This document shows positions 28,308-64,000 of a stretch of DNA of 64,000 nt, piece after piece. A program made the position numbers and the translations under genes. Source of the DNA: Leptolyngbya sp. CCY15150 (GTDB lineage: Bacteria; Cyanobacteriota; Cyanobacteriia; RECH01); contig NZ_JACSWB010000173.1 of the NCBI RefSeq assembly GCF_016888135.1, positions 1 through 64,000 on the forward strand, read 5' to 3'. The notes under the pieces were generated by a model. The model was not told the DNA's origin and did not search any database. It saw nothing but the letters and a program-made list of their open reading frames with translations. The stretch's first letter is position 1. Each line of letters starts with the position of its first letter.

Positions 28308-28976
28308 ATGCCACCGTCCAGTCCATATCAGCCTGCTTTACTGCGAATCCTGCATGGTTCAGTTGCAGTTTTAACTATCCTGGCTTTGATTTCAGGATTT
28401 TGGGTCTACAACACTTACGATGGGCGTTGGGGAAGTATTGGCTTACCTAAGCTAGAGAGTATTCAAGGTATTCATGGCACGTTTGGACTGACGTTCTTGT
28501 TGATTCTTCCCATCTTTGCTCTCTATAGCTTTCATTTAGGATTTCATCGATTAGGTCAAGAGCAATCGTTCAAGCAAGTACTCCAGTTCAATACACCTTT
28601 GGGCTGGATCTCCACTCATCGCCTCGCCAATACATTGATGTTATTAGCCTCTACAGGTGCTGTAGTGACGGGACGTATGATGAAAGAAGAGTGGCTTCCA
28701 GCAGGTGAGACCTATCATGTTTGGTACCTAGCCCACTTAATATCCTGGGGAGTGATGTTTTTATCCCTTGCTCTACATGTGCTACTGGGAGCCAAGGTGG
28801 GAGGAGTACCGTTATTGTTATCTATAGTTAAGATTAAGACTCGGGAGCAAGATAGTCCGCGTTCTTGGCTGCGAGGAATTAAGGCAAAACACTCTAGCCT
28901 AGCCTTAACGGTGACTGAAGTTATCGTCATAGGCGGCATCATTGCAGCATTTATTTTGCCGGTCTTTAATCTCTAA
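28308..28976 (+). CDS. Cytochrome b561-like membrane protein
   Basis: A 222-residue integral membrane protein with about five hydrophobic spans. Histidines positioned in helices suggest two b-type hemes: LLRILHGSVAVLTI, IQGIHGTFGLTFLL, STHRLANTLMLLAS and LAHLISWGVMFLSLALHVLLG. This is the cytochrome b561/di-heme cytochrome b fold that moves electrons across or within membranes. The electron donor and acceptor are unknown; related cyanobacterial proteins are annotated only as cytochrome b/b6-domain proteins. It has no signal peptide beyond its first helix. Codon use appears more A+T rich than neighbouring genes, and only weak ribosome-site sequence precedes the ATG. It stands alone with its own promoter. 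Confidence 0.8.
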   Translation: MPPSSPYQPALLRILHGSVAVLTILALISGFWVYNTYDGRWGSIGLPKLESIQGIHGTFGLTFLLILPIFALYSFHLGFHRLGQEQSFKQVLQFNTPLGWISTHRLANTLMLLASTGAVVTGRMMKEEWLPAGETYHVWYLAHLISWGVMFLSLALHVLLGAKVGGVPLLLSIVKIKTREQDSPRSWLRGIKAKHSSLALTVTEVIVIGGIIAAFILPVFNL

Positions 28977-59496: not shown

Positions 59497-59720
59497 AACG
59501 TCAACCTACAGTGCGATCGCCTACAGCCATAGATCATAGTGCCTTAAAAACCTCTGCGGTACTACCCTGGGGTAGGCTTTACTGCAAAATTGGCATTTCG
59601 GCTACCAGCGGCGCAAGGTTTTTGGTGGTGATGCTGGAGCAAAAACCAGCGATCGCCCCCAATTCTCGCTAGGATAGTTCGACCTGTCTCGCGATGACAG
59701 CTTTGAGGAGGATGATCGGT

Positions 59721-60377
59721 ATGAAATTCAAGTCAGCTACGCTTTGGTTGGTGGCGATCGCCGTGATCTTAGGCGCGGGGGTGGTCATACTAGAAACCCA
59801 GCGATCGCCCGAGGCAGCATCCCAAGCGGAGGGTGTGGAACCTCTATTTACCTTTGAAGAACAAGACATTCAAGCCTTCACCCTCACCACCCAACTGCGC
59901 ACCCTGCGGTTTGAGCGCGATGATCAGGGGCGCTGGCAGATGTTGGAACCGGAGCAAATGCCGGCCAATGATGCCTCGATTGCCTTTTTACTCAACCTGC
60001 TGGTGTCAGGGGAAAGCGATCGCACCCTATCGGTGCCGGCGGCGGATTGGGAGGTGTTTAGTTTTCATCAACCGCTGGCGGTGATCAACCTGACGGTTGA
60101 GGGTGAGGAAGAGGAGCGATCGCTGACGGTGGGAGGCTATGATTTCAACCGCAGCGCCCTCTATGCCCATCGCGATCTGCCAGACAATGCCCCCGATGGC
60201 TTGGAGACGCTAGATGTTTTGCTGGTGACGCCGAGTTTTGAAGATGCGGTCAGCCGTCCGTTGGATGATTGGAAGCAGCTTGAGGAGCAGGGGAGCGATC
60301 CGGAGTCGGGTGAACCAGCAGATGATCTAGTACCGGATGACGCTAACGATCCAGAGACTCCTGAAGGCGAGAATTAA
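59721..60377 (+). CDS. DUF4340-like protein with an N-terminal membrane segment
   Basis: A 218-residue protein. After MKFKSATLWLVAIAVILGAGVVIL, a single hydrophobic segment or uncleaved signal, comes a domain resembling DUF4340 (EEQDIQAFTLTTQLRTLRFE, DGRWQMLEPEQMPANDASI, LLNLLV, DWEVFSFHQPLAVINL, LTVGGYDFNRSALYA). It ends in an acidic low-complexity tail. In other cyanobacteria DUF4340 proteins lie with gliding or ABC-transporter (GldG-like) genes; none is adjacent here, so the context gives no role. The ATG at 59721 follows GAGGAGG by eight bases. Confidence 0.8.
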   Translation: MKFKSATLWLVAIAVILGAGVVILETQRSPEAASQAEGVEPLFTFEEQDIQAFTLTTQLRTLRFERDDQGRWQMLEPEQMPANDASIAFLLNLLVSGESDRTLSVPAADWEVFSFHQPLAVINLTVEGEEEERSLTVGGYDFNRSALYAHRDLPDNAPDGLETLDVLLVTPSFEDAVSRPLDDWKQLEEQGSDPESGEPADDLVPDDANDPETPEGEN

Positions 60378-60482: not shown

Positions 60483-63400
60483 TTAGGTTATTAGTGTTTG
60501 TATGTGAGCAATTAGTTTCTCGGTCTCAACTTTGGAATCTGTAAACCAATCTGTAGACCAAATCCGGTAGATCTTCCACCCCAACTGCTCTAGAACTTGC
60601 TGACGAAGGCGATCGCGATCGCGTGCTGCTTTTGATGAATGGTAGGTAGCTCCGTCGCATTCAACTCCAAGTAGATAGGTGCCTGGTTGTCTAGGATCGA
60701 CCACTGCTAAGTCAATGAAGTAACCGGAAACTCCTATTTGGGGTACTACCTCATATCCATGCTGACGCAGCCGTTCAGCAACAAAAACCTCAAAGTCACT
60801 ATCTGGCTCTCTGTTTGTAACAATTGGTTGTTTTCTTATTAAACGTTGTGTTTGAGCATAATCTAAATATGCTTTGAGTATATGCACGCCATCCTTGGAT
60901 GTTGCACTTGGACGAATGTCACTAGCTTGCATTGAGGAGAAGACGACTACTCGTTCTTTAGCACGGGTAAATAGAACATTTAAGCGACGATGACCATTTT
61001 GGAGATTGATGGGGCCGAACCGCTGCATAACAGGCATACCTGGACGTTCAGGGCCATACACTGTTGAAATGAAAATGACATCACGCTCATCTCCCTGGAC
61101 ATTTTCTAGGTTTTTAACGAAAAATGGCTCTAGTGTGCTCTCTCTCGCTGTCCGATATTGCTCAAGTTCTGGATAAAGAGCAAAAAGCCGATCCATCTCA
61201 TCTAGCAACAATTCCTGCTGTTTTTGGTTAAGGGTAACAACTCCTAGCGAAAGGTTAGGATATTGCCTCATAAAGTCTGCTGTTGCCTCTGCAACACGCA
61301 TTGCCTCAGGAACATTAGCCCCAGAACGGTATGCTCCTGTTTTGATATATTGATACTCAACGGCAAATTTTTTATTGGGCGAGGGAAAAATTGTGAGCTT
61401 TCCATCATAAAAATGACAATTGGAGAAATCAATTAAGCTTTGGTGTCGTGAGCGGTAATGCCACTTCAATTGACGAATAGGATAAAAAACCTTGAGTGAC
61501 ATATCCAGAATCGACTCATTATCTAGAACGTCTACTTCCTGTTCAATATCTTCATCAACGGTCTGTTCAAAGTTAGACCTAAAGAAGTCAGTAGGTGGCA
61601 ACTGTTTTGGATCACCAACGACTACCAACTGTTTGGCTCTTGCAATGGAGCCAATAGCCTCTTCTGGGCGCATCTGGGACGCTTCATCAATAATAACTAG
61701 ATCAAATGTAACAGCACCAGGAGGAATGAACTGAGCAACGCTAGCTGGCGACATCATCCAGCATGGCTTCAACTGCTGAAGTGCAACACTAGCCCGCTGA
61801 AATAGTTCACGCTGGGGTATATGACGTTTCTGCTTGTTAATTTCATTCTGAATTAATGCTAGATTTGTCAGCTCAGATTTTCGCCCACGACTATTTCCAG
61901 GTTCAATAGTAACTTGTGCTAGCTGCGCCACCAACTGTTTTTGGTATAACCTCAACAATTTCTTGTCTGATTGTTGAAATTGCTTGCGAGCCTGAGCCTG
62001 ATCAATCCCAGACAATCGACTAAGCTCAGGATGCTTTTGATAGGCAAATCTTAGGAGCGATCGATAGAAGACAGCCTGATAGACATCTTCTAGATTGTCT
62101 AGGGCTAAATTTTCACGTTCAAATGCTTCAACGAGAGACTGTATGCCATCATCAGCAACCTGCTGATAGACTCGATGGTAGTTAATCCATGTAGGCAAGT
62201 CACTACTGGCTGCCACTGCCCGATCAACACGCTCAGCAATTTTCTCGATCCTAATATCAGTTATATTCTGGCTTCCAAACATCACTTGAACATCGGGTTG
62301 ACCTAGCTGAAAAAATGCTTGTCGATAACGTGCTTCGTTTTCGAGAAACTCAGATAAGCTATGTGAAGCATCATGAATTTCTTTCACTACAAGAGCGGCA
62401 TCTGCAGTAAATATTTTGTCTTGAATGGATTTAGGTAGCTGGGATTGAATAACTGATTTAGCAAAGTTAGTCGTTGCTTCTAATCGATCAATGTCTGTTA
62501 GATCCTCCTGATAAAAACGCCCTAACGTATAAATTGCTTCAGATAAATTAATCTTTTGTTGTGTAGCCTCAAGTTCTTCAATCCGTTGAATTAGCTCGGA
62601 GGCAAAGGAGTTTATTGTGAGCAATCCCTGGAAGTCAGTTTCTAATCCCTTGAAGAACTTGCCGCAAACTCGCTTCAGTTTGGCATCGCACTTAAAGCGA
62701 TCTAATTGCTCTTGAAACCGTGCGATTTTTTCGAAGATGCCAGCAATTTCAGAATCTGAGCAATGAGATGATTGCTTCTGAATTTTCTTCCACAGATCTT
62801 TAGCTTCTCGATATTTAGAGTTAAATAAAGAGGATAATAAGTTGGACTGACGAAGCTGCTTAGCATAGTGAGACATTTGACCTGAGCCTTTACAAGCATA
62901 TAGATTGTAGCTTCGGCTCAACTCAGTTCGGGATGCTTTTAGACTATCGCTAGTTTCTTTTGCCTTTATGAGTAGAGAAGCATGGGAAGAATTACAGAGT
63001 TCAGGAACTTGTGTACGTAAAGCTTGAACTGCATTATGTATATGCTCAATATCTTCCTCACTGTTTTGCGGCTCTCCAAGTAAAAATTTGAATCGACTTA
63101 GTTCAGACGAATCTAGTCCTTCCTGGAAAAACTGCATTAGGACTTGCTTATTTCTTATAAGATCTTTTACTTGATGTGTCAGTAATATAACAGAACTGTT
63201 CTTTTTGTTTGTTTTTAGAACGGGTAGTAATGCTCCTTCAATCAAAGGATGTATCCTGGGACAGTTTCCTAGCCGTTGCTGAACTTTTTGAATTTCTGTT
63301 AGCGTTGCCTTCTGTTCAAGTCCTAATATCCTGACAACTTGATGCCATGTGCTGTGAAGCTGTTTCAAGGCATTTGACCACATTTCTGCATTCGCACGCA

Positions 63401-64000
63401 AGTCACCCTGATCAATAGGAGACAAATTATGGGCGGTTAATCCAAACCAAGGATGTTTTCTAATCTGGCTGTGCTTTTGAAGCAGTTCTTGCTGTTGTTG
63501 CTGAAATTCTCTGAGATGTTGACATTTGCGCTGAAGATCCGCAGTGGTCATTACTGCTGCTTTATCATCCCGAAAACTTTCTAGTCCAGATGGCACTGAT
63601 GGAACGTTAGCGATTAGCTCCATCGCACGTTGGTGAGACCAAAGTAACTCCTGAATAGTTTTTCCCGTTTTCCCACAAGGCTGGTTAAGAAGCTCTACAT
63701 AGCGAGATAGCAGTTGTCTCAACTGGCTGCACTCCCTGACTTGATCTTCCAGTTCTTGCGAGATATCCGGAGGTGACTCTTGCTCAACTCGCTGCTTCAA
63801 TCGTTCATAAAAAGACTGCCGAGAGGTAGCGGTTGAGTGTACTTCCAGGCAGTAATTTTCTAGCCCAGCACCTGCCAAACGGTTATATACAACCTCAAGA
63901 GCAGCCTTCTTCTCAGCAAGAAACAGCACTTTCTTGCCCTTTGCTAGGGCAGCAGCAATCAAATTTGTGATAGTTTGACTTTTACCTGTGCCTGGAGGAC
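60483..64000 (-). CDS. SF1 helicase with C-terminal DUF559/MTES_1575-like nuclease domain (partial)
   Basis: The 3' part (about 1171 codons) of a large protein whose 5' end is beyond the right edge. The first visible residues PPGTGKSQTITNLI are the Walker A motif of a superfamily 1 (Upf1-like) helicase. After some 700 residues of mostly helical, coiled-coil-rich sequence come Walker B LVIIDEASQMRPEEAIGSI, then GDPKQLPPTDFF, WHYRSRHQSLIDF, GVVTLNQKQQ, and the DERDVIFIS ... RLNVLFTRAKERVVVFSS helicase block. The last 120 residues are a PD-(D/E)XK nuclease-like DUF559/MTES_1575 domain (FEVFVAERLRQHGYEVVPQ, FIDLAVVD, LLGVECDGATYH). Composition is more A+T rich than the neighbourhood, with HIP1 only near the 3' end (60609-60622). 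Confidence 0.9.
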   Translation of the reverse strand, partial: PPGTGKSQTITNLIAAALAKGKKVLFLAEKKAALEVVYNRLAGAGLENYCLEVHSTATSRQSFYERLKQRVEQESPPDISQELEDQVRECSQLRQLLSRYVELLNQPCGKTGKTIQELLWSHQRAMELIANVPSVPSGLESFRDDKAAVMTTADLQRKCQHLREFQQQQQELLQKHSQIRKHPWFGLTAHNLSPIDQGDLRANAEMWSNALKQLHSTWHQVVRILGLEQKATLTEIQKVQQRLGNCPRIHPLIEGALLPVLKTNKKNSSVILLTHQVKDLIRNKQVLMQFFQEGLDSSELSRFKFLLGEPQNSEEDIEHIHNAVQALRTQVPELCNSSHASLLIKAKETSDSLKASRTELSRSYNLYACKGSGQMSHYAKQLRQSNLLSSLFNSKYREAKDLWKKIQKQSSHCSDSEIAGIFEKIARFQEQLDRFKCDAKLKRVCGKFFKGLETDFQGLLTINSFASELIQRIEELEATQQKINLSEAIYTLGRFYQEDLTDIDRLEATTNFAKSVIQSQLPKSIQDKIFTADAALVVKEIHDASHSLSEFLENEARYRQAFFQLGQPDVQVMFGSQNITDIRIEKIAERVDRAVAASSDLPTWINYHRVYQQVADDGIQSLVEAFERENLALDNLEDVYQAVFYRSLLRFAYQKHPELSRLSGIDQAQARKQFQQSDKKLLRLYQKQLVAQLAQVTIEPGNSRGRKSELTNLALIQNEINKQKRHIPQRELFQRASVALQQLKPCWMMSPASVAQFIPPGAVTFDLVIIDEASQMRPEEAIGSIARAKQLVVVGDPKQLPPTDFFRSNFEQTVDEDIEQEVDVLDNESILDMSLKVFYPIRQLKWHYRSRHQSLIDFSNCHFYDGKLTIFPSPNKKFAVEYQYIKTGAYRSGANVPEAMRVAEATADFMRQYPNLSLGVVTLNQKQQELLLDEMDRLFALYPELEQYRTARESTLEPFFVKNLENVQGDERDVIFISTVYGPERPGMPVMQRFGPINLQNGHRRLNVLFTRAKERVVVFSSMQASDIRPSATSKDGVHILKAYLDYAQTQRLIRKQPIVTNREPDSDFEVFVAERLRQHGYEVVPQIGVSGYFIDLAVVDPRQPGTYLLGVECDGATYHSSKAARDRDRLRQQVLEQLGWKIYRIWSTDWFTDSKVETEKLIAHIQTLIT

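Follow-up and report, generated by a model that had tools for sequence, protein, structure and literature searches.

An intact Hhe-like helicase–nuclease gene standing alone among vitamin B12 genes in the cyanobacterium Leptolyngbya sp. CCY15150

The A+T-rich gene at the right edge of the window (the whole 64,000-nucleotide stretch of Leptolyngbya sp. CCY15150 DNA analysed here) encodes a complete helicase–nuclease that, judged by sequence, is of the already known Hhe / PDC-S37 kind. It stands alone among vitamin B12 genes, between a DUF4340 protein gene and cobD, and is not part of an island. The reading we prefer, at a probability of about 0.65, is that of a single-gene, Hhe-like anti-phage enzyme in which a motor feeds a gated nuclease: the protein is a homologue of Hhe with, probably, a similar mode of action, and it is this homology that suggests a role in defence.

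Extension of the 90,478-base contig to the right, as the preliminary description had proposed, completed the gene to an intact ORF of 1,569 aa on the minus strand (contig 60483..65192) and brought its right-hand neighbours into view. The window holds 1,171 codons of this hhe-like gene (60483..64000), the remaining 5′ 1,192 nt lying outside; as the ATG start codon is at contig 65192, beyond the window edge, the window is without the N-terminal DUF4011 domain (aa 15–262, Pfam E=9e-40). Pfam matches give the domain order, from N- to C-terminus, as DUF4011, a split UPF1/Dna2-like SF1 helicase (AAA_11/AAA_12) and an MTES_1575 (Vsr-type) nuclease, in agreement with the earlier claim of an SF1 helicase core joined to a DUF559/MTES_1575-like endonuclease; the MTES_1575 match has E about 5e-39, and DUF559 matches the same protein more weakly. 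Walker A (GPPGTGKS, aa 398–405, at 63978..63998, the window edge cutting its first G) and Walker B (DEAS, aa 1169–1172, at 61677..61688) are spaced 764 residues apart, followed by the second RecA-like domain of the helicase (AAA_12, Pfam, aa 1237–1420, at 60933..61484) and the PD-(D/E)XK nuclease domain (aa 1467–1564, at 60501..60794), all on the minus strand. Helicase motifs I, II and III–VI are intact (GPPGTGKS, DEAS, GDPKQLPPT, WHYRSRH, NVQGDERDV and RRLNVLFTRAKE), and the conserved nuclease residues DFE (E1468), D1494 and ECD (E1511, D1513) are present; among 27 relatives the helicase motifs and the four nuclease residues are mostly invariant, and all are kept in nearly every member. The gene is under purifying selection in its clade (dN/dS about 0.07–0.15, with the intact copies at about 0.13–0.15).

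The AlphaFold model of the part encoded in the window (1,171 aa, pLDDT 82) has a split RecA fold. Between the Walker motifs lies a 692-residue stretch (about aa 452–1143, at 61764..63839, minus strand) made up of 75% helix and 1% strand, with pLDDT values mostly about 80–90, and the approximately 700 mostly helical residues first described there thus reappear as a helical insertion of roughly 690 residues within the first RecA-like domain. Next come the second RecA domain and a C-terminal alpha/beta nuclease. Foldseek matches for the helicase (E about 1e-9 to 1e-7) were headed by the Dna2 nuclease-helicase (E=4e-9) and included senataxin, UPF1, Sen1 and IGHMBP2; intact motifs and fold match together place it in the UPF1/Dna2-like SF1 class, to which sequence profiles also point. 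The likeness to Dna2 is one of SF1 helicases, the match spanning about 380 of the 1,171 residues; Dna2's nuclease is N-terminal and RecB-like, unlike the C-terminal Vsr-type nuclease here. DUF4011 was also considered as a possible HEPN domain, and this was set aside as unproven: its model (pLDDT 82) is alpha/beta, mixing helices with long strands, and had no significant fold match in the PDB.

Searches against defence models found the link to a known anti-phage family that had been proposed, in this case Hhe / PDC-S37. PDC-S37 was the best PADLOC model (1258 bits, with Hhe at 982). The NCBIfam models scored 1412 bits for Hhe (NF042953, an equivalog with a curated cutoff of 2000) and 1122 for ProA (NF058533, cutoff 1500), and because the Hhe score lies below its cutoff the protein is termed an Hhe-like / PDC-S37 member rather than a certified Hhe. 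PDC-S37, a PADLOC-DB single-gene phage defence candidate of similar total length, is matched over nearly its full length (model positions 1 to 1341 of 1550, the last ~200 being unmatched); no published test of this family was found in the literature, and its defence role is a prediction only. Alignment by tblastn to the Klebsiella plasmid Hhe, annotated as anti-phage, takes in 98% of the query at 34% identity, and the two proteins agree in their Pfam domains and in the order of these: DUF4011, an SF1 helicase carrying a long insertion, and MTES_1575. The CCY15150 protein is the more compact, with 764 residues from Walker A to Walker B against 933 in Hhe (its insertion is one of the shortest among the relatives compared) and a tail of 21 residues after the conserved W1549, where Klebsiella Hhe continues for 147; the C-terminal extension of Hhe is thus missing from it. 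The H in the name Hhe stands for HEPN; no Pfam HEPN match was obtained in the query or in Klebsiella Hhe, and the RNxLLN motif position reads RNKLLH in one distant relative. Hhe was reportedly described by Gao et al. in 2020.

Other relatives share the same core in different settings. ProA has the helicase and nuclease modules in common with the CCY15150 protein and ~350 extra N-terminal positions. The MTES_1575 HEPN giants (Anantharaman 2013, PMC3710099), after which the nuclease family is named, likewise have the helicase–nuclease core, but their HEPN, transglutaminase and wHTH (DUF3320) domains were not found here by Pfam. Many relatives of the proteobacterial branch end in a GreA/GreB-like domain with no counterpart in the cyanobacterial clade (L067:13092-13430 and about 30 other loci, e.g. 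L074, L076, L081 and L129; Pfam E=5e-8 in L067, over 30 relatives matched by phmmer, and a weak match to PDB 2pn0), which suggests that proteins of that branch may contact RNA polymerase.

Relatives at E<=1e-100 were present in 24/390 cyanobacterial genomes of the class, and 442 plasmid records carried relatives, 223 of them typed conjugative. The distribution is therefore patchy, as had been claimed, while the word ‘rare’ was too strong. Thirty-three pattern matches in IMG/VR included no relative, and phage records yielded one unannotated contig of faecal origin, with 58% coverage and 38% identity. A gene tree of 80 relatives gave a supported clade with Leptolyngbya ULC077bin1 (G203), Gloeomargaritales VI4D9 (G062), Limnothrix CACIAM 69d (G037) and Synechococcaceae SM2_3_1, followed by genome G010. 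The closest relatives are thus in other cyanobacterial families and are 70–82% identical, where core proteins are about 56–67% identical with silent sites saturated, and this discrepancy, taken with the patchy presence, supports horizontal transfer between cyanobacteria. The Leptolyngbya and Gloeomargaritales copies share 90% amino acid identity (pS 0.30), against 61% for their P-type ATPases, which are saturated (pS 0.75); the CCY15150 and Gloeomargaritales genes share 82% over the C-terminal 670 residues, against 62% for the ATPase, 58% for CobD and 56% for RecF. The comparison with Limnothrix is weaker (70% for the gene, 59–72% for CobD, RecF, ATPase and CobQ). Several copies are broken: that of Gloeomargaritales has lost its N-terminal half at an IS-like transposase gene, that of genome G007 has its frames interrupted, with an IS630-like transposase present, and that of SM2_3_1 is in three frames. 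In G010 and the Gloeomargaritales genome G062, which belong to different families, the gene lies near psaB (L048:1408-12634 and L049:9994-18087; psaA/psaB recognised by eye), possibly a shared insertion spot.

These data bear on whether the protein might instead be a housekeeping or stress repair enzyme with no dedicated anti-phage role, acting Dna2-like at stalled forks or UPF1/Sen1-like on R-loops or transcripts. Its closest solved folds are those of Dna2, senataxin, UPF1 and Sen1, the Gre-like domain of many proteobacterial relatives hints at a link to RNA polymerase, and no defence genes neighbour it in CCY15150; moreover, a DUF4011 gene is found in every P. aeruginosa isolate as a core gene flanking a defence hotspot (PMC10250203), so accessory defence need not be the role of each DUF4011 protein. 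Against this stand the presence in only 24/390 genomes, the transfer across families, the broken copies in relatives and the best matches, which are to defence models; a repair role is considered rather unlikely.

In base composition, measured against the ORFs of the 90-kb contig in place of a genome-wide mean, the gene is A+T richer than its surroundings, as had been judged by eye: its GC is 0.428 (contig ORF mean 0.54), and its GC3 of 0.354 (GC1 0.575, GC2 0.357; contig ORF mean GC3 0.58) is the lowest of 52 contig ORFs (z −2.9). The window contains 154 HIP1 sites, and in its part of the gene HIP1 occurs only as the overlapping pair at 60609..60622 (GCGATCGC), as first noted; with one further site beyond the window, at contig 64126, the whole gene has 3 where 11.6 are expected (Poisson P=0.003). 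Another composition outlier, at window positions 28308-28973, is an ORF of 222 aa that is free of HIP1 and has a GC3 of 0.43. Were the gene native, its low GC might merely reflect a helical, charged protein make-up, and indeed across 70 relatives GC3 follows that of host or neighbours (r=0.81), being slightly lower on average (mean difference −0.05). However, the drop in CCY15150 falls at silent positions and is far beyond the family average, and deficits of −0.13 to −0.30 in the closest relatives (Limnothrix −0.24, SM2_3_1 −0.30) indicate more than an effect of the protein's make-up. Nativity also conflicts with the contrast between protein and core-gene identities, and is very unlikely.

Acquisition was apparently horizontal, then, but the recent date inferred in the preliminary description is not supported, because a congener has the gene's 3′ end at the corresponding site. 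The left neighbour, a DUF4340 protein gene of ordinary GC and HIP1 content (59694..60377, plus strand), marks the insertion site. In congener G002 the contig bearing the DUF4340 gene breaks off within the 3′ portion of this gene, at the same position (last 72 residues, 94% amino acid and 90% DNA identity), and no further part of the gene was found in that assembly. Over these 72 codons dN between G002 and CCY15150 is 0.025 and dS 0.44, compared with 0.034 and 0.23 for DUF4340; dN is thus like that of the flanking gene, and dS somewhat higher, on few codons. The simplest reading, and the most likely, is of one insertion before the split of CCY15150 and G002.

At this locus the assemblies of the two congeners are interrupted, the contigs with DUF4340 and with cobD both breaking there, and no clean empty site was obtained. 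With G001, the other congener, homology is lost shortly past the DUF4340 gene, and the break falls at a HIP1 site (L002:4402-4455 against L043:1020-1065), beyond which G001 has a PIN toxin gene; the family member G003 has DUF4340 and then a different gene. G002 has a PIN/DUF2281 pair and putative IS1-like remnants beside cobD. Across the congeners' DUF4340–cobD interval there are PIN-domain toxin genes, probable antitoxins and IS1-like remnants (L042:1-1500 in G002, L043:115-798 in G001), and these make the interval look variable and suggest a small variable site, although every congener contig breaks there. A mobile element was considered as the carrier and rejected, as no integrase, tRNA, terminal repeats or IS lie beside the gene.

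The possible defence island that had been suggested to continue rightward is rejected in view of what follows the gene: cobD, cobQ, cobO and an alpha/beta hydrolase gene, cobalamin and other housekeeping functions with normal GC and HIP1. To the left are DUF4340, a P-type ATPase and recF, and no defence gene adjoins at this locus, so that the island reading is corrected to that of a gene alone. Some 21 kb to the right, beyond the window and at the contig end (contig 86398-90167, L003:10398-14167), a tandem of three TIR/SEFIR proteins is encoded; two are fused to GUN4, one has a ThsB-type TIR, and the cluster is HIP1-free and mostly of low GC, with PADLOC bSEFIR and ThsB matches. Placing the gene in a defence island, or in a system of several genes such as CoCoNuT type III-B, would draw on that cluster, on the BrxL, type I R-M and Gabija-like PADLOC matches near distant relatives, and on the resemblance to CnuH of type III-B, which likewise has a UPF1-like SF1 helicase, a large helical insertion after Walker A and a C-terminal Vsr nuclease (PMC11090510). 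The CCY15150 protein, however, begins with DUF4011 and has DUF4340, cobD, cobQ and cobO for neighbours rather than adjacent McrB/McrC (CnuB/CnuC) genes, and the tally of relatives' neighbours is given little weight because the contig control also yields PADLOC matches and the sets were unmatched. The multi-gene reading is largely refuted by the neighbourhood and is scarcely credible.

For the single-gene anti-phage enzyme we favour, a mechanism may be sketched by analogy with Hachiman, whose nuclease, it has been proposed, is licensed when the helicase engages single strands (PMC12278908). The UPF1/Dna2-class SF1 motor would load on exposed single-stranded nucleic acid of the invader, whether replicating or damaged phage DNA or an R-loop or transcript, and translocation would feed the strand to, or unlock, the C-terminal Vsr-type nuclease, which would cut it. 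DUF4011 and the helical arch of ~690 residues may serve as a sensor or gate keeping the nuclease quiet on host DNA, and DNA is more likely than RNA to be the nuclease substrate. Consistent with an anti-phage role are the intact ORF and motifs, purifying selection, homology to Hhe over 98% of the protein and horizontal spread; the score below the Hhe cutoff, the ~34% identity to Hhe and the lack of adjoining defence genes count against it. No phage assay for the cyanobacterial clade was found in the literature.

Defence could alternatively be directed at plasmids or transformed DNA and not phages, as a restriction-like barrier without a methylase; direct recognition of invading DNA has been proposed for a Vsr-type nuclease that is fused to a translocase and has no modification partner (Anantharaman 2013, PMC3710099). 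Yet Hhe is carried on many conjugative plasmids (the 223 typed records above), which implies that the family tolerates plasmids, and this alternative is improbable. Improbable, too, is a reading in which the compact cyanobacterial members form a subtype with a function of its own, one that would sense invaders through transcription–replication intermediates (R-loops, stalled polymerase) and not free DNA ends; they are among the smallest complete helicase–nucleases of the family and lack both Hhe's C-terminal extension and the Gre-like, possibly RNA-polymerase-binding tail of proteobacterial relatives.

Gao_Hhe has been reported by DefenseFinder's authors in Proteobacteria only (PMC9090908); the present Hhe-like clade is intact, spans several families of cyanobacteria and appears to have been exchanged laterally. 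Its compact architecture may offer a tractable minimal form for biochemistry and, should the enzyme prove anti-phage, it would add a further nuclease barrier made by a single gene to those that bear on resistance to cyanophages.
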